Shown in pieces: positions 8,055 to 62,804 of a stretch of DNA of 64,000 nt. This DNA is from Sipunculus nudus. Lineage: Eukaryota > Annelida > Sipuncula > Golfingiida > Sipunculidae. Both the position numbers and the translations under genes were made by a program. The DNA lies in contig CM049322.1 in assembly GCA_026874595.1 (NCBI GenBank), positions 43,276,840-43,340,839 of the forward strand. Direction: 5' to 3'. Below the pieces are notes generated by a model that ran no database searches, had not been told where the DNA came from, and was given only the letters and a program-made list of their open reading frames with translations. The number at the start of each line of letters is the position of its first letter. Position 1 is the stretch's first letter.

Positions 8055-8583
8055 TTAACAGACCTTCTCACAGATGGAAAACTGTTTTATCCGACAGCTT
8101 CTATCGTTCCATTTATTTTCCATTCCACGGTTAGGGTTAATTTCGAGACAGTCCTCGTCTCCTCCTGAATTGCTGGGTTCACCCGTTTTCCAATTTGTGT
8201 CACCTGTTTTCCAATTTGTGTATCCTACTTTACTGTGATCAGCTTTCCAGCGCCATAATCCCTCAGACGATATGTCGTTCCCTCCTATCCAGAAAGGAAC
8301 CTTGAAACGTTTTGTGATTTGTGTCAGATGGTCATCCTCTGCCTTGGTTTCAATGGTCACCAGGTGCCCGCCCCTTGTGTGGCAGTTTACCATTGCTTGA
8401 AGCCAATCGAAAGCAGTACGCACAAATAAGTAGCAGCTAGCCCTGAAAGCAACGCTCCGGCTCCCTTGGCGGAAACGGTAGGAGAAACCAGTTTGGTTAC
8501 CAAGAGCTGGATTTTAAACAATACCATATAAAAATATTTGCAATAGAAGGTAAAATATCCTACCTTCTATCTACATCTGTTAT

Positions 8584-13309: not shown

Positions 13310-13708
13310 ACCGGCTTCTGTGGCTAAGGGGTAGAGCGCAGGACTCAAAGCCGGGAGATCTTGAGTTCGAATCTCAGCCGAGGCGGTGAGATTTTTCACG
13401 GTCGGCCCCCACCCAGGGTGAGCGCTCTGCAGGCTTTATGGAAAGGCCGTGCCAAACGGCCGTGTTTCACTCACAAACGAGTGCGCCTTTCGGGGGCCCC
13501 TCGGTGGTTTGACCCAGCAATGGGGTCGATTACACACCCAGGTCCCGCAGGTGCAGTACTCACCGGGCCTGGTTAACGCCAAGATATAAATGAGAGGAAG
13601 CGTGTGATCCTGCCCGTCAGGTTGTCCGAAACCGGAATCGAATTCTGCAGATGTACATATATGTAGTTAAGTAAGCATAAAAAAATGGAGGCGGTTACCT
13701 CCACCAAA

Positions 13709-27683: not shown

Positions 27684-29865
27684 ATGAACTTATTTGTTAC
27701 CTGCTCTGTAGTAGTGTGCCTTATGGCAGCTGCGAGTGGTAAGTATAATGATTGTCAATCTCCAATGCCTCTTTCCTCGAACAGAACAAAAAATGGAGCT
27801 CACTGTTATTTTGGCACTTTTGTTCATATATTTTCGGATTAAATGTCAATGACTGATCTAGAGAAAAATATACTTTTAATTACGACATAAAACTGGCTTG
27901 CCTAGTAATTGCTACGAGACCTTTTTTTGTTTTCATGATTAAAAGTAATCTATATGAAGTATATAGCATCTGGTAGATAAGAAACCAGGTCATACATCTT
28001 ATATAAAATATTTAATTTAATTTGATTTGATAGTAAAGCAAATGATATGGAGGACCGAATTATTCTTTACATTCAGCCTATAAGTGTCCTGAAGACTTCG
28101 GCCATTTATACAGATATGGACAGAGGGTGAACGGCAAATGGATACCATCCTGCTACATGTTCGTAAGAATAGATTTGACCTGGATAAGGGCTAGGGAAAA
28201 CTGCATTAAACATGAGGGAGACCTCGTCAGCATAGAGACAAAGGGGGAAAATTATCATCTAAGAAGAATAATAAAACAATCACCTCAACTGCAGAAGCCA
28301 AGTACGCTTTCAAAAATTCAATTATCTTTTTTCGCCAAAAATAATAAACAAATGAACCAATAAGCATGTTATTTGGTGATACATATAGACTAATATGTTT
28401 TAATTATGTACACCGTCTTAAAGCCATCAAACTTCCGTTATATCTCAGACTCCTGTACGGAGACTATAAACCCTTGCATCAATACCATGTATGGACACAA
28501 CAATACCCTCTATAACGACACTGAAAATATGCTACGACAGATTTTACGTTAGAAGTATACTGTGGTTGCTTATTTTTTTGCGAGGGTTTACATTTCGCGA
28601 TTTTCGCTTTATGGAAATTATCGCGAAAATTAATTCTTCGTGAATCAGAGGTCCCATCATGGAAGGCATGTCTATGATAAAAGACTATATGATGCTTTAA
28701 CAATGATATCAGATTCTCCAAATTATCTGCTATTAACGGATAATAATTTTATCTCGATATATCTTCCCTTGGATCCCCGTCTAATAAATAATATTTTACG
28801 CACAAATCATTAGATATAAATAATTCATTTAATACTGGTTTACAAATAATGGTTTCATATAATGATGGTTTATATTTTAATATGCTGAGATTGCGAAAAT
28901 GAAATCCTTGTGAAAAAAACGAAAAGTTGAAAAATAAACCTCGTCACTATGAAGCCAACCACAGTATTCAAACATATTGATGAAATATAGGATTAACTAT
29001 TAATGAATATATATATATTTGAAAAGGTTTATGCGGACAAATTTCCATATTGCTTTTTGCAAAATGTAAGAGCATGGAAATAATGTAAGTGATATATGTT
29101 TTTTCATGTGTTTGAAAAAGTAAAATAATAATAGATATTAAATACTGCTTACGTTTCCAGTACAACCCGTACATACATATTTCTTAGGATCATATCATAT
29201 TTAAAAGATCAAACCAAATCAACGAGGATATCAATTTGCAGATTATATTCGATAACTCTTACCGAAACTCTTATGATGTATTTGAGGGTTAGGTGGTGTA
29301 CGTTTTGTTTACATCTGAGGTGTACTTGGTTGACAAATAAGAGTATAACATATCTAATCATGTATTCTCTAGAAGCTTTCCAAGCTTTACCAATCTTCTG
29401 GACCTACAATTTCAACAATCCCTTTACTGTGAAATTTCAGTTTAACAACATAATAGAGCGGTTCAACGTAGATCTAATAAATATAAGGTCCAGAAACCAA
29501 AACAGCAAGACAAATTGCCAACAGGAAATTTTGTCGAACTAATTTGTGTAACGAAAGATCAGCTCATTATGATATATTATACCTATCGTGAATTTATTTT
29601 TCATTCGTCAGGTCTGACAGACTACAGATCTTGGGGATATTGGCTCGGTGGAAATGACCTGCTTCATGAAAGACACTGGCGATGGGCGTCAACAGGGTGG
29701 AAATTTACCTACGCCGATTGGTCCAGAAATCAGCCAGACAACAAAGATTCTATGGGCAGAGCTGAGCACTGCCTCGAGTTACTCAGGAATTTTGATTGGA
29801 AATGGAATGACATGTACTGTGGTGAAGAATTTCAAGGGTCCATCTGCGAAATTAGAGCACAATGA
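27684..29865 (+). CDS. Secreted C-type lectin, QPD type (CTL-B)
   Basis: Three coding exons: 27684-27738 (signal peptide MNLFVTCSVVVCLMAAAS), 28077-28301 and 29612-29865. All junctions are GT-AG and phase 1, and the product is about 177 residues. Exon 2 gives the first half of a long-form C-type lectin domain (KCPEDFG, PSCYMFV, WIRARENC, LVSIETK). Exon 3 gives the second half (YWLGGND, HWRWAS, NQPDN, AEHCLEL, KWNDMYC, GSICE). Six cysteines match the three disulfides of the long form. QPD with WND at Ca2+ site 2 is the galactose-type signature in the family, so binding of galactose or GalNAc is an inference. The protein is probably soluble, because no membrane segment follows. A MITE lies in intron 2 and another in the 3' untranslated region. 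An AATAAA at 30353-30358 is conserved in the duplicate copy. Confidence 0.9.
28560..28964. mobile_element. MITE in CTL-B intron 2 (CTGTGGTTG family)
   Basis: Ends CTGTGGTTGCTTATTTTTTT and …GAAGCCAACCACAG are inverted repeats, flanked by TA on both sides (28558-28559, 28965-28966). The interior has GCGATTTTCGC-type motifs. The copy at about 38690-39056 in the duplicate lacks the left end, so insertion predates the duplication. Confidence 0.8.
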
Positions 29866-49048: not shown

Positions 49049-50752
49049 ATGGCCGCCAAGGCCACATACATATTTTACTTATTTCTTCTGTGTTACACTT
49101 TTGCAGAAAAGCAGGACCAGTGTTTATCATGTATGCTCTGTACTTTAGAAGAAAGAGTCTATTTATCCAAATCACTCATGGGCGACTTCAGCTCAGTCAA
49201 AACTGGACACTTCGATCATTGTAACATAAGGTCGGTTGAACCTTACATACTTAAAAACTTTACAGTCTTGGAGATCATATATTTCTCTTGGAATAATATA
49301 TCAGGCATTTATCCTCACGTGTTTGGAGGAATGGAGCATCTCAAAGAACTGCATATGAATAATAGCCAAGTGCATTTTGTGGAAAAGAAAGCCTTCAGCA
49401 ACATGCCAAGTTTGGAAACGTTGTCACTAAGAGGTAACCATCTGAAAACGATTTACGCTACTAGCTTTCACAATTTATCAAAGTTGGCATATATAGACTT
49501 AAGTAATAATGCCATAACTAGTTTCAAATTTGACCTTCTAAATTTACCATCGGTTGACACTGTTCGACTGAGTGAAAATAAACTTAGCACGTTTCTCGCA
49601 AAAGAAGGTATAAACGAACTTCCCCTAAGCTTGAAATGGTTGGATCTTTCCAACAACTTATTCCGATTATTTCCGCTATTTATTGGTTGTAGTTGTCACG
49701 TGTCCCTGACAGGCAACCCACTTTACTGTAATTGCCATGCAAACAGTACAATGTGTAACATGGATTACATATGTTCTTGGCCGATGCACATGAAAAAAGC
49801 AGGCCGTTCTGGTTCAGTGACATATACCGAAAATAACGACTCTTTACGGCTGGTCAGGTTTGGGTCGTTTACCCCAAATCAAACAGTGGCACATATCCAC
49901 AGGAGATTCTTCACAGAAGTTGGCCAATGCACGCTGCCACATATAACTTTATTCCAGGTGTCACGTGATAACAGGGTACTGTTTTGTAATGCAGAAGCAT
50001 GGCCAAAACCTCATGTGTATATAACATCGCAAGTTGAGGATGGCAGACTTGATTGGAAGCATGTATATAATATTGACTATAGTTCAAACGTAACTACCGC
50101 AACAACGAGTTATTTACAAACATTTTCATACACATGCTTCGCTGTGAATGAATATGGTACCGTTTCCAAAGCATTACATCTAGAAGGTATCTACAATCTT
50201 TCGTCTTCTACAATACAAGCAGAGGATATATCTTTAGGGACGACCTTGGAAATTCATGAAACAAACGACAGAGGGCGACACAGTCTAACGAGCGTTTTTG
50301 TTGGACTCGGTGCTGGCGGAGCTTGTATACTAATTGTTGCATTATTCATCTTGGGCAGGAAAATCAAGTGTTTAGTACAAAATACCAGACAGAGAAAGTT
50401 ACTTTCCCAAAGGCCATTGCCATTGATACCCCCTAAACGTATAGGAGCCGATGCTTTGAAAAGGATGACACACACACACGGGGAAAGAAACATAGAAGAC
50501 CATGGATATGATATCGTTAGCGAGGAAGAATTTACTTGTACTTCAACAACCGACCCTTCAGTTCGTGCGAAGCAGCCATTGGGAACATCATCAGATACAG
50601 GAAATAAATATGTCGACGCCCCATGTTGCAATTTGTGCAACACTGTATCAACAGGGGACACGAATGGAATGGAGAGCGATTATTATGCACCACAGGGTTA
50701 TTTGGACCCAATCAACATGAGAGACAGACACTTTGAAGAAAGTGAGTTATAA
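49049..50752 (+). CDS. LRR-Ig single-pass membrane receptor A
   Basis: An uninterrupted 567-residue frame. The start ATG (AAAATGG context) opens a signal peptide (MAAKATYIFYLFLLCYTFA). A cysteine cap follows (C25, C28, C31, C58), then about six to seven LRRs (residues 60-210) and an LRRCT (C214/C216, NPLYCNC at 224-229, C236, C242). Next is one Ig-like domain with C313 and C363. Membrane segment about 412-435 (VFVGLGAGGACILIVALFIL). The tail has an SH3-type motif RPLPLIPP (455-462), YDIV (487), and C-terminal YYAP (545) and YLDP (551). Several NxS/T sites suggest glycosylation. By architecture it is a cell-surface recognition or adhesion receptor; the ligand is unknown. There is no TIR or kinase domain. 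It is the most diverged of the three paralogues here and lies on the opposite strand to the other two. Confidence 0.88.
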   Translation: MAAKATYIFYLFLLCYTFAEKQDQCLSCMLCTLEERVYLSKSLMGDFSSVKTGHFDHCNIRSVEPYILKNFTVLEIIYFSWNNISGIYPHVFGGMEHLKELHMNNSQVHFVEKKAFSNMPSLETLSLRGNHLKTIYATSFHNLSKLAYIDLSNNAITSFKFDLLNLPSVDTVRLSENKLSTFLAKEGINELPLSLKWLDLSNNLFRLFPLFIGCSCHVSLTGNPLYCNCHANSTMCNMDYICSWPMHMKKAGRSGSVTYTENNDSLRLVRFGSFTPNQTVAHIHRRFFTEVGQCTLPHITLFQVSRDNRVLFCNAEAWPKPHVYITSQVEDGRLDWKHVYNIDYSSNVTTATTSYLQTFSYTCFAVNEYGTVSKALHLEGIYNLSSSTIQAEDISLGTTLEIHETNDRGRHSLTSVFVGLGAGGACILIVALFILGRKIKCLVQNTRQRKLLSQRPLPLIPPKRIGADALKRMTHTHGERNIEDHGYDIVSEEEFTCTSTTDPSVRAKQPLGTSSDTGNKYVDAPCCNLCNTVSTGDTNGMESDYYAPQGYLDPINMRDRHFEESEL

Positions 50753-56043: not shown

Positions 56044-57750
56044 TTATACATCAGTTCCGCTGGGGATATTCTCTGAAAATTTTGACATTTCCACTGGTTC
56101 AATATAAGATTCTGGCTTCATATAGCCTTCTGATAGGTCGTAATCTGATTCTGTATCAGATTTCGTTCCTGAGACTATGGGTGCTTTACCAAGAGCATCA
56201 CCAGTTGGTAATTCTCGAACTTGAGACCGCTCAATGTTTGGATCAGGAGGCAGTAATGCTTCATACTTTCCAATTTCACTCAGTTCATCATAGAATTGAC
56301 CGGAAACTGCGCCGTTATCTTCGATAGCAAAGGTGTCACCTGCGAATGGCTTCATTGGCAGCGGTCTGTTTGACAGTTCAACGGCAACTGATGTCGGGTC
56401 TCCTTTCCCCCTGTGTCTTTTATAATATGCTAAACAGTAAATTGTATATGCCAGTAAAACGAACAGCCCAGTTCCAGATAAAGTCGCTACAGTAATAATC
56501 CCAAATTTCAGTAGCACTGAGTTGTCTTTATATATCTCTGTTTCAGGTTGACTAGTGTTCACCGTATTATTAAAGATGGTTGTTGTAAGCACCTTTTCGG
56601 CGACGCCTATAATATTTACGGCGGTGCAGGTAAGGTTCTTATATTCTAGGGGCGTGTCCATTGTGATTAGACTATGTGCTTTGTCATATTCATAATCAGC
56701 TGGGTCGGATGTAACCCCCTTTTCCTGTCCTGTCAGACTCATGAATGCAGGTGGGTCTGATTCTACGGAACACGTGACCCTGCCACCATTCTGAGTCAGG
56801 CTAAGCTTTTGCGGGCCATAGCAATCCGTAACACTGAGATATTCATTCCAGTTTGCTTTCTCAACGCTCAGGTTTTGTAAAATTTTCGCAGAATGAGTTT
56901 GTTTGTAAATGGTGTACGTAGTGGAAGCAGTACTTCTAATTCTAGATTTTTCTCTTGGAAATTTGCAGCCAAGCTGCACATGGCATTTAACCAATAAATC
57001 GTCTGCTCGTACACATCCACAATAAAGAGGATTTCCAAGGAATGTCAAGCGGAAATAACAAGAGCCAAGTGGTGGTAAAATAATAAATGTATTATTTTCT
57101 AAATCCAACCAGTTTAGGTTTGGTGGCCATTCCTCGGCACTCGCAACATGATGTATTTTATTGTTGGACAGTCTTAGGTATTTTAAGGAAGCTAATCCTG
57201 CGAAAGAACGGTTTGAGAGCTCTGATAAAACATTATATCGAAGATCTAGGTACGCGAGTCTTGGGATGTCCGCAAAAGCTTTCTTGTCTATTGCTTTGAG
57301 CCAGTTATGACTGACTGATATAAATTCTAGAGTTTTAGTTTCTGCAAAGGCATATGCATCGATATATTCCACCTTACCTTGGTCAAAATACACTTCTTGC
57401 AAGGATACTAAATTACTAAAAATCCCCTGGCTAATGTTGCGAAGATTGTTCCATTTCAATCGTAATACATTCATCACTATATTGTCTTTGAACACTGCCT
57501 GCTCCATGTGGGCAATAGAACAGTTGTTTAAGTTCAGGTCCTTGGCAGCTGAGGTGTCTCCTAGATCCGAAAGGGTTAAGTAGTTTGGATATTTCATGGG
57601 GCACACGGAACAACCATTACACTGAACACTAGATGCTGCAGCTTGTGACACAAATATATTTGTCAAAAATAGAAATATGTAAAACAAGCTCTCTAAAAGC
57701 AAGCTCTCCATATTCCTCGCATCCCCGATAAAACAACCCATGATTCCCAC
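56044..57750 (-). CDS. LRR-Ig single-pass membrane receptor B
   Basis: Single-exon frame of 568 residues. The first ATG is at 57750. The second in-frame ATG (57711, residue 14; AATATGG context) starts directly at a typical signal peptide (MESLLLESLFYIFLFLTNIF), so I prefer it, giving 555 residues. Order of parts by the long numbering: cysteine cap C44, C47, C50, C77; seven LRRs about 68-227; LRRCT with NPLYCGC (240-246), C256, C262; Ig-like domain with C327 and C375; membrane segment about 415-442. The tail has NRPLPMKP (SH3-type, 461-468), YDEL (487), YEALLPP (496), YDLS (537), YMKP (543) and YIEP (549). It aligns end to end with receptor C, its tandem neighbour. An AATAAA overlaps the stop region, so the 3' untranslated region may be very short. 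Confidence 0.9.
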   Translation of the reverse strand: MGIMGCFIGDARNMESLLLESLFYIFLFLTNIFVSQAAASSVQCNGCSVCPMKYPNYLTLSDLGDTSAAKDLNLNNCSIAHMEQAVFKDNIVMNVLRLKWNNLRNISQGIFSNLVSLQEVYFDQGKVEYIDAYAFAETKTLEFISVSHNWLKAIDKKAFADIPRLAYLDLRYNVLSELSNRSFAGLASLKYLRLSNNKIHHVASAEEWPPNLNWLDLENNTFIILPPLGSCYFRLTFLGNPLYCGCVRADDLLVKCHVQLGCKFPREKSRIRSTASTTYTIYKQTHSAKILQNLSVEKANWNEYLSVTDCYGPQKLSLTQNGGRVTCSVESDPPAFMSLTGQEKGVTSDPADYEYDKAHSLITMDTPLEYKNLTCTAVNIIGVAEKVLTTTIFNNTVNTSQPETEIYKDNSVLLKFGIITVATLSGTGLFVLLAYTIYCLAYYKRHRGKGDPTSVAVELSNRPLPMKPFAGDTFAIEDNGAVSGQFYDELSEIGKYEALLPPDPNIERSQVRELPTGDALGKAPIVSGTKSDTESDYDLSEGYMKPESYIEPVEMSKFSENIPSGTDV

Positions 57751-57825
57751 TACCAGGATGACGAATGAATGATGGTATTTCCACGGTGGTACAATTATTT
57801 AGATGAACTCGACGCACCACGTATC

Positions 57826-57832
57826 ATATATA
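57826..57832 (-). promoter_or_regulatory. Candidate TATA box of LRR-Ig B
   Basis: CATTATATATGATACG on the minus strand, about 75 bases upstream of the first ATG and 115 upstream of the second. Sequence match only. Confidence 0.35.
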
Positions 57833-57840
57833 ATGAATCG

Positions 57841-60800
57841 GTTAACCATGTTAATGGAAAGGGAGATATTTAACAACAATCAACCATGTTAAAATCCTGA
57901 CCTCAGTGCTGATAGCTATTTTTTTTTACTTTGCATTCATATTAACCCTGAGGTTTTAACGGTTTATATAGGAGACTTAAATAAAGGGCACATTTATCTA
58001 TCGGGATGAGACTGAACTGAAGGATAACTAACAATAAAAATAGTTTATATGTTCCAGAAAGAGACCATTTGAACTGATATAGCCATTTGAAGGACTTCAA
58101 TTTTTTTGTCCCTTGAGCTTCTAAAACTAGCTTTTGTATAATTAACAATAGAAGAATTAATCACTTCGCTTGTATGTGCACATATTATTATAAAATAAAC
58201 AAAGTTGAATGGTTTTATATATCAATACATGTAACCTTGGGCTTTCGTGATATATAGAATTTGATAAAAAGTAGCCTTCTGGCCCCTTGTGGTATTATCG
58301 GTTCTACTTATCTAGCAACATGCAACTGAATTTATGACCCCGGTTATATTCTTTGCACCTACAATAAGCTGCCCCTAATAAATTGTGTCACCAAATGATT
58401 GAGTTCTTGCCCTGATTGTCGGATGCCATGCTTTAACCATATTATTACTAACATGCACTATTGCGGGAGAAGCATAACCTTGTTTTTATTTGCACATCCT
58501 CAGAGTGCAAAATGATTTATTATCAACAGGACCTACAGTAACCTTTGATTAAGCGATTCTTTATACGGCAAAAGTTATTCATAATTTGCTCTTCTAAAAT
58601 ATCCATTATTTACAGGAATACACTCACAATCTCGACTTATACCTGCTGTGACAACTGTAGTTTACAATTGTAGGCATATGCATGCAGACAGCGGTGGGCT
58701 TGCTGAAATCTTAAACACGAGCATGTACATACAAATATGGTTCACACTTTGTTAAGCAAGGGTTCACCATATGCAAAATACGCCAAATCGTTGAACACGA
58801 AAGAAATGTAGCACAGTTAAAACTCATCTTCAGACAAGTTATTAGGTGTGTTTATATAACAGAATGAAGATCATTATATTCCCAGATTGTTTTGTGATAC
58901 ATGTGTATTTGCTCTTTGGATTAGTTGCTCTACAATTAGTTAATATGATTAATGTCTACAAACTTCTTTTTCACTGAGTAAATTTCCGTGTGTTTTCCCA
59001 TAACCTGAGCTACTTTGTTTCCACTTGCTTTTCACGCCTGGTTCCATCAAAATAACTGGTGAATCCAAAACATTGAATGGCTGCAGAAAGAAAATCCGTT
59101 TGTGTTTCAAACTAAACCAGACGTATTGTAACTGTCATGCATCAGTCATTCATCCCCACCTATCCACCATCCCCCTTCCGATTCCTCCCTTGATCTTTTA
59201 TCCACATCTTATATGTTTGCGAAGAACTACAGTTCTGTAAAACCAATCAGGAATTTAACTGTCCCTTCTTGAGTTTTTGTCCGATGTGTTAAAAATTTTC
59301 ATTTTTGAATATTATTCAAAACCTATTGAACATACCTTTACCAAACTTGCCACTGCACTCCTTAATTGGTATCGACACGTCTGCAAAAGGTTCAGCTCTC
59401 TACGTTTAACGTTTTACCTGGATAGTAGTATAACTGTAAAGTACTGCGAAATCTGTCTTATATGGTTCCGCATGATTGAAATCAATGCGGTACCCAAAAA
59501 AATGTTTTAACACGGTACTATAGTTGGGTTTCAATGTTTCAATTAAATAGGTCAATGTCACCAAAACTGGGTCAAATTAATTGGTTTCAAGTATCGTATA
59601 TCCTTAATTAGTATCAATGAAATCGGATGAAAAAAGCGGCAGAATAATAAGAAAAAGAAGAATTCAAAAATGTCTTCGACTTTCAATATATGGAGATAAT
59701 TACCGTAAATTGTGCAATGCATTATCAACATAACGATGGTTTAAAAGTGAAAAATTTAAAGATTTTTTAAACAAAATTTTTCCTTACCAAAAGTGATCTT
59801 TGCATCGATTATTTGACACATTTGTAATTAACAGGGTCTTTCATATAACAAACGTATATATTAAACACGCGCCTTTATAAATGTCAAAATTCCGTTTCTT
59901 CCTTTCCATGCATTTAAAAAGTAAATGTAACAATGAAAGTACACTCAATAATTTTATTAATGTGTTCGTATTATTTCAAACTGTAATGATAGATATATAA
60001 CAAAATCTCTACTCTAAAGAGAACGACAAGACTAGACGAACCTAAAATACGCATTTTTCCACCGTCATATTATGCCATATATGGATTTACATGCAGATTT
60101 TTTTATTAAAACCCGCTGCACATCTGCAGTTAACTATCAACCTCATGCAAATATGACTTAGCATTAATAGACCAGCATGTTTAATGATTTTATCTTGTCT
60201 AGTATTATTTTAGTAATATTATTGTATAAAATTGACCCTTGTAGCAGTTATGCATTCCTTGTTTTATTCGTTATAGTGCTATTTTTGTTGATTATATATA
60301 TGTGTATGTATGTGTAGCATTTACATGAGCCCTGTTTACCCTGTAGTTAATAAGATTAATCCTATGCTTTATGAAAAGATAGGTCACAATTCTTGTCTGA
60401 ATGTTTTTATTATTGCATTAATGGAAAGAACTGATGCATTTACATCAAGTTTGACTCGATTTAATCTACCTGTCCGTCGTGACGTAGTCGCTTATATACA
60501 AAGCTGCTTACAATAAATATATATTACCATAGGTGTACGCATAATGTATGAAAAACCTCTTTAATGTGTCATTTTCTAACAATCTGTATCATGCTTTAAT
60601 ATACACATGGTAAATTGGATATTCTAATATATACATTATAACATGAAAATAACATTTCAGATCATGCTGTCTAACAAATTTTGTCTTTTCTGCCAACAAT
60701 ACCTGTGGAGAGAGTTTAGGGAGTAAAATATATTTCGTCGCTCAATTGTCACCGTACGAAATGTTTAGTCGTTCTCGATGTTTTTTTTAAACAACTAAAA

Positions 60801-60950
60801 GCCGAATTTCTTTCATGTTATCGCCAAACTAATGTGACCGAAACTAGATGCCACTTTATTAAAAATTTGTCATAAGGAGTTATGCGAACACTGTTCGTTC
60901 CGCAGACAAACGTTACAATCTTTTCTCTTCTATTTGCTTAATTCTTAGTT
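57841..60950. other. Intergenic region between LRR-Ig B and C
   Basis: No gene, SINE or TIR element recognised. The short open frames show no domain. The right end probably contains the 3' untranslated region of receptor C. Confidence 0.5.
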
Positions 60951-60959
60951 CTTGTCTGG

Positions 60960-62804
60960 TTAAGGTACCTCATTTACTTTTTTGTGCTTGACAGAAAACT
61001 TGTTCATTTGTATTGGTTCCAAATACGATTCGGGCTTTACGTAACTGTCCGGCCTGACGTAGTCACTTGTGGCTCGATTGGTGTTACTGAGAGAATCCAA
61101 GGTGTTTGTGTCCAAGTTTTTACCCGACTTTTGCAGTGTAATTCCAGAGGACTCTAGCTTCAAGTAGCTTTCTGGTATATCGACATCATTGGCCATTTTT
61201 TCTCCAAAAGCCTTGAGTGTTGGATCTATCACCACCGGCTTAAGAGTTGTGCCATGTGGACTGACGGGTTTTATGTAATCATACTGAGCGCGGGGAGGCA
61301 GGAGAGCCTCATACTTGCTGACTTCTTTGACATCCTCATAAAGATGGTTAGACATAACAGATAAAGCTTTACTGTCCCTTCCGGTGCCAAGGTGACATGA
61401 GTCACGAGAATTGGGTGGTTTCTGTGGCAATGACCGATTTGAGTGATCATGGCTACTTTTCCTGGCTCTTCGTTTGTAACATAGATATCCACACAATAAT
61501 CCTGACACAATTACCAACAACAATGTTGCAGGCACAGCAATAGTAATAATAGTTCCTGTGATACCTGAAGCGGTTGCGACTGCAGTTGCCATGGTGAGAG
61601 CAAAAGTAGGTGCAACTGTTTTCTCTGGGTCTGTGACCTTGTGCTGTAGAGTAGTTTCCTTTACTGGAAAGGTCACCCTGCTTGGAGCCACCTTAACATC
61701 CCGTTTGGTTTCACCTAGCGTGTTGGTCGCTACGCAGGTGACGTTCTCATCACCCATGTGTAGGTCAATTGACAATTTAGCCTCCTTCTTGCCATTATTC
61801 TTTCCATCTTGAACTTTTCTCTCGTTAACATTCTGTGAAATTAGCTTGATTGAGGGGGGAGGATCTGATTCTCCAACACATATCACTTTGTCATTGACCT
61901 GAGTCATATTTACTATCTGGGGTGAGTAACAATCGGTTACACCCGTGAAGTTATTCCATTTTTGTCTCTCAGTGGAAAATCCTTGAATAATTTTCAGAGA
62001 AACGCCAGGTTTATAATTTGTATAATTGACATTTGCTGTGCTTCTTATGGAAGATTTCTTTCTTGGAAATTTGCAGCCGAGTTGCACCTTGCAATTTGGC
62101 AGTAAATAATCTGGTCTCACGCAGCCGCAGTAGAGTGGGTTTCCAAGGAATGTAAGTTTGAAGCCACACTTTGCGAGTGGAGGTAAGAGATCAAATTTAT
62201 TATTTTCTAAATCTAACCATACCAGGTTTAAAGGCCATTCGTGACCAGTGTCCACTGAGTAAAGCTTATTACTTCCTAGTCTTAAATACTTTAGTGACGC
62301 CAATCGAGCAAAGGACATGTTTGACAACACAGTCAACTTGTTGTAACGAAGATCCAGGTATGTTAGCTCGGGAACCCCATGGAATGCTTTCTCGTGAAAT
62401 GCTTGTAAACGGTTATGTGTCAGTGATATAACCTCCAAAGGTTGTGTTCCTGAAAAAGCATCTTCGTCTATGTATTCCACTTCACCATTATCTACATACA
62501 ACTGTTCAAGTGAGACAAGATCAGTGAAATAACCATGACTTATGTTACGCAAGCTGTTCCAAGAGAATCTTAGCACACTCATTACTTTATTGTTTCTGAA
62601 AACCCTAGGTTCCATGTTTGCAATCGAACAGTTATTTAGGTTAAGGTCCTTTACAGCTGAAGTATCCCCTATGTCTGATGCTGTTAAAAAGTTTGGGAGT
62701 TCGGTTGGACATATCAAACATCCGTGGCAATTTCCTGGCGTTGTTGAGGCATATGGCGGCACAAGCTGCGTTAACAAAATAAACCACGCGACAATGTGAT
62801 CCAT
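60960..62804 (-). CDS. LRR-Ig single-pass membrane receptor C
   Basis: Single-exon frame of 614 residues starting at a signal peptide (MDHIVAWFILLTQLVPPYAS). Parts: cysteine cap C26, C29, C32, C59; seven LRRs about 50-209; LRRCT with NPLYCGC (222-228), C238, C244; Ig-like domain with C309 and C357; a Thr/Ala-rich juxtamembrane stretch; membrane segment about 415-442. The tail is the longest of the three: NRSLPQKPP (SH3-type, 456-464), YEDV (489), YEALLPP (498), YIKP (510), YLKL (547), and three YxxP motifs exactly six residues apart (YVRP 582, YVKP 588, YLEP 594). It is the closest paralogue of receptor B, in the same orientation 3.2 kb away. The ligand is unknown; a signalling role through SH2/SH3 adaptors is inferred from motifs. 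Confidence 0.9.
   Translation of the reverse strand: MDHIVAWFILLTQLVPPYASTTPGNCHGCLICPTELPNFLTASDIGDTSAVKDLNLNNCSIANMEPRVFRNNKVMSVLRFSWNSLRNISHGYFTDLVSLEQLYVDNGEVEYIDEDAFSGTQPLEVISLTHNRLQAFHEKAFHGVPELTYLDLRYNKLTVLSNMSFARLASLKYLRLGSNKLYSVDTGHEWPLNLVWLDLENNKFDLLPPLAKCGFKLTFLGNPLYCGCVRPDYLLPNCKVQLGCKFPRKKSSIRSTANVNYTNYKPGVSLKIIQGFSTERQKWNNFTGVTDCYSPQIVNMTQVNDKVICVGESDPPPSIKLISQNVNERKVQDGKNNGKKEAKLSIDLHMGDENVTCVATNTLGETKRDVKVAPSRVTFPVKETTLQHKVTDPEKTVAPTFALTMATAVATASGITGTIITIAVPATLLLVIVSGLLCGYLCYKRRARKSSHDHSNRSLPQKPPNSRDSCHLGTGRDSKALSVMSNHLYEDVKEVSKYEALLPPRAQYDYIKPVSPHGTTLKPVVIDPTLKAFGEKMANDVDIPESYLKLESSGITLQKSGKNLDTNTLDSLSNTNRATSDYVRPDSYVKPESYLEPIQMNKFSVKHKKVNEVP

Follow-up and report, generated by a model that had tools for sequence, protein, structure and literature searches.

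Three short motifs in the diverged tails of leucine-rich repeat-immunoglobulin receptors of Sipunculus nudus suggest a Cas-like docking platform

How might a cell-surface receptor signal when its tail carries no catalytic domain? This question is raised by the right end of a 64-kb stretch of the Sipunculus nudus genome (contig C17, positions 43,276,840-43,340,839 of a 1.43-Gb assembly; hereafter the window, numbered from its first base). Three genes at this end, receptors A, B and C, each encode a leucine-rich repeat (LRR) and immunoglobulin (Ig) ectodomain, a transmembrane (TM) segment and an intracellular tail in one complete open reading frame (ORF). A sequence-only reading of the window had noticed in these tails YxxP tyrosine motifs at an exact period of six residues, together with a proline motif, RxLPxxP, and had interpreted the proteins as tyrosine-phosphorylated docking receptors. 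In the present study, in which all comparisons were made between paralogues within this one animal genome, the observation was confirmed and the interpretation was partly supported. The tails have diverged except for three short motifs, a pattern that points to a kind of signalling receptor not described before. We consider it probable, with ample room for doubt, that the tails form a non-catalytic, membrane-anchored, Cas-like phosphotyrosine docking platform on single-pass LRR-Ig receptors.

The ORFs, the residue numbers, the six-residue YxxP period and the RxLPxxP motifs were found where the sequence-only reading had placed them; its span covered B and C, and A lay outside it, as it had said. 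Receptor A (49049-50752, + strand) is a protein of 567 residues with a Pfam match to LRR_8 (E 3e-23), and its match to Ig_3 reached only E 0.5. Receptor B (56044-57750, - strand; LRR_8 E 2.2e-25, no Ig family at E <= 1) has 568 residues when counted from a GTG codon, with ATG codons at residues 4 and 14 (57741 and 57711). Receptor C (60960-62804, - strand; LRR_8 E 4.4e-30) has 614 residues, and its Ig signal was Ig_PDGFR_d4 at E 0.0073, below the Pfam cut-off. B and A are 47% and 26% identical to C, respectively, and the PDB matches of C included LRIG1 and LINGO/LRRN6A chains, via the LRR part. A single TM segment was called in each protein from the best hydropathy window after residue 260 (maxima 1.90-2.51), at 50294-50356 in A (+ strand, residues 416-436; 2.51), 56455-56517 in B (- strand; 1.90) and 61488-61550 in C (- strand; 2.43). 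No kinase, TIR or other catalytic domain was detected in A, B or C by Pfam at E <= 1, in agreement with the earlier claim. A weak match to PAG, a membrane phosphoprotein adaptor, at residues 448-501 of C (E 0.039; 13.5 bits against a cut-off of 27) was counted weakly in favour of a docking function.

In all three tails, the motifs follow one another in the same order. An SH3-ligand-like proline motif near the membrane is followed by a mid-tail tyrosine site and then by YxxP units six residues apart. In A (+ strand), these are RPLPLIP (50411-50431, residues 455-461), HGYDIV (50501-50518, residues 485-490), which is a weak counterpart of the mid-tail motif by alignment and does not match its strict pattern, and the pair YYAPQGYLDP (50681-50710, residues 545-554). 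B (- strand) carries RPLPMKP (56347-56367, residues 462-468), the mid-tail motif FYDEL (56281-56295, residues 486-490) followed by KYEAL (56254-56268), and the pair YMKPESYIEP (56095-56124, residues 543-552). In C (- strand), RSLPQKP (61416-61436, residues 457-463) is followed by LYEDV (61329-61343, residues 488-492) and KYEAL (61302-61316), an extra lone YIKP (61266-61277, residues 510-513) and a triple YxxP unit, YVRPDSYVKPESYLEP (61014-61061, residues 582-597). The mid-tail site, of a hydrophobic-tyrosine-acidic type, is a third motif that the sequence-only reading had not mentioned. A six-frame scan of the window found stop-free YxxPxxYxxP at four places, all in the tails of A, B and C; the looser [RK]x[LP]PxxP was found at five places, with three matches in the tails and the remaining two in other frames. 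The immunoreceptor tyrosine-based activation motif (ITAM) has the form YxxL/I x6-8 YxxL/I. The YDEL-x5-YEAL of B and the YEDV-x5-YEAL of C leave only five residues between the sites and A is without a second site, so the ITAM spacing does not occur.

The three receptors belong to a large family. Searches of the genome with A and B returned at least 79 matches on several contigs and at least 78 matches, respectively, counts that include overlapping or broken copies. We fetched and read 58 loci (L numbers), several of which were overlapping or identical copies; L004 and L058 were no clear members. LRR_8 was recognized in 23/23 family ectodomains, and an Ig domain after the LRR was supported family-wide, not gene by gene (Ig_3 in 6/23, best E 4.5e-8; Ig_2 in 6; I-set in 3). 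Among the ectodomain cysteines, C309 is invariant and C357 nearly so, with a YTC consensus. Among the 29 non-redundant rows that have a membrane segment, the protein stops 1-35 residues past it in 12 and extends into a tail of 80-249 residues in 17. Loss of the tyrosines from an intact ectodomain, which the sequence-only reading had held to speak against it, is therefore seen in part of the family, in those 12 rows; L054 and L055 are without the pair, yet they keep 15 and 8 tyrosines.

For motif counts, 22 long tails were used, from one-exon genes, two-exon genes and L020. This set omits near-identical copies, short-tail members, L003, L050, L030/L064, the broken L062, L063 and L065, and a decayed orphan tail; the tails of L003, L050 and L030/L064, later located in other ORFs, also carry the pair. 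The 22 tails are not independent, because L012/L020 and L025t/L033t are close pairs, and a set of 17 was made by collapsing the long tails at 70% identity. YxxPxxYxxP was present in 15 of the 22 tails (3000 rounds of shuffling: mean 0.03, maximum 1), [RK]x[LP]PxxP in 15 (mean 0.32, maximum 4) and the third motif, [ILVF]Y[EDQAH][DEA][VILMFP], in 17 (mean 0.39, maximum 4). In the collapsed set, the pair was present in 10/17 tails, and composition-preserving shuffles gave a mean of 0.02 and never more than one in 5000. A lone YxxP was far less telling, with 14/17 tails against a shuffle mean of 5.8 and a maximum of 13. The claim that the pair occurs in all LRR-Ig receptor tails thus holds for the window (3/3) and fails for the genome, in which 15/22 long tails have it and other relatives are tail-less.

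The spacing was also regular. Among the 17 tails, neighbouring YxxP sites were exactly six residues apart in 11/15 cases. The mid-tail tyrosine lay 28-29 residues from the SH3 core in 11/15 tails having both (range 22-32), as measured with a relaxed tyrosine pattern that lets A and L016 count. The RPLPxxP ligand begins 9-30 residues past the membrane segment, and the paired unit sits 7-48 residues from the C-terminus. The commonest letters of the pair are [ED]-Y-[MLI]-[ED]-P-[ILV]-[GS]-Y-E-E-P-[VI], of which A, B and C have divergent versions. In addition, a cysteine pair or CxC was found in 14/22 tails (shuffle mean 5.8, maximum 12) and is absent from B and C.

The sequence-only reading had predicted that the Y and P positions would be more conserved than the rest of the tail, and among the paralogues they were. 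In an alignment of the 22 tails built without knowledge of the motifs, the top columns were Y (1.00), Y (0.95), Y (0.86), P (0.86), P (0.86) and C (0.77), then three P columns (0.73), followed by R, L and D (0.68); aligners tend to stack tyrosines, and the ranking is to be read with this in mind. The motif residues were then compared with the other aligned tail residues in seven paralogue pairs, all drawn from tails having the YxxP pair, so the YxxP identity is partly a matter of choice. The motif residues were identical at 9/9 positions in A-B (26% for the other residues), B-C (36%), L024-L042 (46%) and L027t-L060t (31%), and at 7/9 in L027t-L052t (41%). The close pairs L012-L020 and L025t-L033t kept 13/13 motif residues each, with 75% and 81% of the other residues. 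Alignment A1 had 13 rows, three of them with a single YxxP, and A3 had 11 rows chosen for having the pair; the invariant YxxP columns of A3 are partly a result of this choice, and its invariant P19 and Y44 are not.

At the DNA level, a simple repeat was excluded as the source of the six-residue period. The two 12-base YxxP units of a pair have 6-9 bases in common, at least four of which follow simply from the invariant letters of the Y and P codons, and several pairs differ in their codons. A consensus DNA pattern of the pair (<=1 mismatch) matched the genome 17 times and its reversed control 0 times; the 17 is a lower bound, because the pattern, built on the family consensus, does not match the pairs of the window itself. 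All 17 matches lie in LRR-Ig loci, 16 within fetched loci and one adjoining an LRR-Ig match, and they include the broken or interrupted copies L062, L063, L065, L003 and L050. Genome searches with two tail proteins, in which scoring was limited to the top candidates (14 and 17), yielded 14 and 13 matches, nearly all in or directly adjoining LRR-Ig genes; the exceptions were three chance-level matches (E 5.8-7.5) and one match (E 5.9) to the decayed orphan tail. As far as two protein queries and a single DNA pattern can show, the paired motif is restricted to the LRR-Ig family in this genome.

From these motifs we infer phosphorylation, SH2 and SH3 binding, the identity of the kinase and adaptors, the output and an immune role. 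RPLPxxP and the third motif would together make a bipartite Src-type docking site, which fits Cas better than YxxP alone. Ligand binding would cluster the receptor, and a Src-family kinase would dock with its SH3 domain on RPLPxxP and its SH2 domain on the mid-tail phosphotyrosine; the near-fixed distance from the SH3 motif to the tyrosine fits one kinase holding both sites. The docked kinase would phosphorylate the YxxP pair, to which SH2 adaptors of the Crk/CrkL or Nck type would bind, and these would elicit Rac/actin responses, for example engulfment, spreading or migration. Since the halves of the pair differ, each might serve an SH2 partner of its own, or one of them might be a spare site for a single partner. 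The immune role is guesswork based on the expansion of the family and the existence of tail-less relatives.

The proposed arrangement resembles several known systems in part. In p130Cas, a tyrosine site, YDYV, lies near RPLPSPP and serves the Src SH2 domain. Excerpts of PMC2956669 place RPLPSPP in the Src-binding domain of p130Cas and describe 15 YxxP sites that, once phosphorylated, recruit Crk and Nck. Like the receptors, p130Cas/BCAR1 has an RPLPxxP Src-SH3 site, a nearby tyrosine site and YxxP sites for Crk/Nck; unlike them, it is cytosolic, has SH3 and CCH domains and carries its 15 YxxP ahead of the Src-binding domain. The receptors are membrane-bound, with the opposite motif order and mostly two YxxP at the fixed period of six, and no p130Cas-type SH3 or CCH domain was found in A, B or C (Pfam, E <= 1). 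DCBLD1/2 offer the closest working model among membrane receptors. According to the available sections of PMC6029619, these transmembrane receptors have YxxP sites that bind the CRKL SH2 domain after phosphorylation by Src-family kinases or Abl. Both are transmembrane scaffolds with conserved intracellular YxxP sites, as are the receptors in our reading, but they have a CUB/LCCL/discoidin ectodomain and eight and seven YxxP, and sites named in those sections (PMC6029619), such as 655, 666 and 677, are spaced by 11 and not by six. CUB, LCCL and discoidin domains were not found in A, B or C (Pfam, E <= 1).

By their ectodomain, A, B and C belong to the broad LRR-Ig class, of which amphioxus has large LRRIG sets. 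Vertebrate neural LRIG, LINGO, AMIGO and Trk share the order of LRR then Ig; they have short different tails, more Ig domains or, in Trk, a kinase. Neither a Trk-type intracellular tyrosine kinase nor the TIR domain of Toll-like receptors was found in A, B or C by Pfam. The abbreviation LRR-IG appears in an Aplysia immunome paper (PMC9334734, in excerpt), and the LRRIG proteins of such invertebrate immune inventories, as far as these sources describe them, have a similar LRR plus Ig ectodomain. A docking tail on LRR-Ig proteins was not described in the open-access literature as judged by titles and the openings of abstracts, which is weak evidence for the novelty that the sequence-only reading had claimed.

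Several results weigh against a Cas-like docking tail. The pair is missing in 7/22 long tails (L013, L016, L018, L026, L049, L054 and L055), the SH3 motif in 7/22 and the mid-tail motif in 5/22; the match of L018 to the mid-tail pattern is located at the C-terminus, and the HGYDIV of A is a poor match. For L012/L020, the ratio of nonsynonymous to synonymous substitution (dN/dS) was 0.38 in the tail, 0.31 in the LRR part and 0.34 in the Ig part. The tail as a whole is thus not below the ectodomain, and constraint is therefore confined to the short motifs. For L025t/L033t, dN/dS was 0.24 for the stretch that ends with the pair and 1.02 for the residues beyond it; between B and C, synonymous change was saturated in both the LRR part and the tail. 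The broken copies L003, L050, L062, L063 and L065 keep the pair, so its presence alone is no proof of function. For the same reason, the decayed orphan tail at C17 41,308,091-41,308,441, upstream of L033, in which the Y and P of the pair are lost, was not used as proof of constraint. Furthermore, two YxxP sites six residues apart may be too close for two SH2 domains at once.

Two readings would deprive the motifs of function altogether. That they arose in a disordered tail through chance, low complexity or simple DNA repetition can be credited with next to nothing: lone YxxP sites are indeed common, with shuffles giving about 6/17 tails, but the paired unit, the SH3 motif and the mid-tail motif all exceed every shuffle, the SH3-to-mid-tail spacing is near-fixed and neither unit of a pair is a DNA copy of the other. 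Hardly more credible is simple inheritance from a recent common ancestor without selection. All copies are paralogues in one genome, L005-L008, L013/L014 and L018/L019 are identical or near-identical, and the pair persists in broken copies, all as this explanation expects. Against it, A is about 25-33% identical to its relatives over matched stretches, near copies aside, and many ectodomain branches are near or above one change per site. At such depth, unselected residues are lost, as the neighbouring tail residues mostly are, which speaks against inheritance alone.

The other alternatives accept that the motifs work and differ on how. A role in trafficking, through endocytosis or ubiquitin ligase recruitment, appears improbable. 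Y-x-x-hydrophobic is the AP-2 signal consensus, and the YEAL of B and C, among other sites, might act as such a signal, but the paired YxxP and RPLPxxP would be left unexplained. A stronger candidate, which we nevertheless regard as unlikely, is docking by a route other than Cas-like Src-Crk signalling, namely Nck only, Abl, RasGAP, PLC-gamma or SH2 phosphatases at the mid-tail site; with SH2 phosphatases, some members would be inhibitory. The second half of the pair is YEEP in 8/15 cases and YxEP in 13/15, close to the Nck consensus, and the first half has M, L or I at +1 in 12/15, so the differing halves may recruit different SH2 domains. The six YxN sites of L054 likewise suggest that the output may vary within the family. 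The order of RPLPxxP and then, at a near-fixed distance, pYE[D/E]-hydrophobic argues instead for a Src-type bipartite arrangement. The immunoreceptor tyrosine-based inhibitory motif (ITIM) has I, V, L or S at -2, which the mid-tail site is without in 11/11 A3 rows.

YxN is a Grb2-type site, and the L054 tail may represent a switch to Grb2-type docking: its six YxN sites compare with a shuffle mean of 1.05 (0/5000 shuffles reach six), and it has no YxxP pair. The L055 tail has two YxN, not above chance (548/5000 shuffles). The LRR-Ig relatives L054, L055 and L056 lie together at C17:23.91-23.95 Mb, their tails having YCNYD-type repeats in place of YxxP pairs.

The history of the family was examined with an ectodomain tree of 45 rows, in which many deep joins are without resolution. 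Branches of about one change per site separate deep long-tail lineages. Fifteen C9 rows that have no docking tail group in a single supported clade (99/97), and L023, which has the pair, is sister to L028, which has a 2-residue tail (99/99). The C9:27.0-28.7 Mb cluster (L001, L002, L021, L022, L040, L041, L043-L048, L051 and L057) has tails of 1-35 residues. Within up to 1.5 kb downstream of 11 of its 14 genes (all except L045, L047 and L048), no tail motif set was found, only YxxPxxY by chance. These short-tail genes are possible decoys.

KIR and LILR, the paired immune receptors, mix members with signalling tails and tail-less members on Ig-only ectodomains, with ITIMs or adaptor pairing. 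The LRR-Ig family is not homologous to them but likewise mixes tailed and tail-less members. We tentatively suggest, while thinking it rather doubtful, that the LRR-Ig superfamily works like these vertebrate receptors, with lineage-expanded Cas-like Src/Crk tails, YxN Grb2-type tails and a separate tail-less decoy clade together tuning engulfment or immune-cell activation. If the docking proposal is true, a large and diverged family of animal recognition receptors would itself carry the Src-Cas-Crk docking logic, and the LRR-Ig proteins of immune inventories would gain a concrete signalling route. The motifs are short and separable. Because the family has members with docking tails, other tails or no tail, the paired-receptor hypothesis would be testable in an invertebrate.

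Gene structure also varies within the family. A two-exon cluster (L025, L027, L030, L033, L052, L060, L061 and L064) lies at C17:41.286-41.378 Mb, about 2 Mb from the window, and its genes at 41.29-41.38 Mb have the LRR-Ig part and the TM/tail part on separate exons, with phase-0 CAG|GTA donors read in L025, L033, L052 and L030. The three motifs are present in one-exon and two-exon genes alike. Several LRR-Ig exons here end without a membrane segment, and a protocadherin-like array with a shared constant tail exon was considered; it was rejected because L025, L027, L033, L052, L060 and L030 each own a downstream TM/tail exon.

Further loci show tails in other states. L017 (C3:40.75-40.90 Mb) stops just past the membrane, with a tail-like stretch containing YQAL and YQSF beyond the stop, and its relative L018 in the same region has an open tail with several YQ sites. 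Directly downstream of L012, C9:29354133-29354303 holds, in an open frame of its own, a copy (84%) of the final 57 residues of the L012 tail, which is a local duplication of the tail end. Identical or near-identical receptors lie about 0.1-1.4 Mb apart at C9:27.04-28.39 Mb (L005-L008 and L039) and C3:40.70-40.85 Mb (L013/L014 and L018/L019); these are either recent segmental duplications or assembly duplication.

Elsewhere in the assembly, COX1-family matches with very similar scores were found on contigs C60, C61, C62, C66, C72, C74, C75, C89 and C123, with a partial match on C5. L066 (C60) and L067 (C123) look bacterial, with an aa3-type and a cbb3-type operon, respectively, and such contigs represent either bacterial cobionts or contamination. 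Within the window, an ORF at 8055-8513 (- strand) encodes a C-type lectin domain (Lectin_C, E 6.2e-21); the ORF at 29446-29865 (+ strand) is lectin-like by eye but had no Pfam match at 0.01. At 13314-13385 (+ strand), Rfam gave a tRNA match of 30.8 against a gathering score of 29, and ARAGORN found no tRNA in the window; this stretch is possibly a tRNA-derived element.

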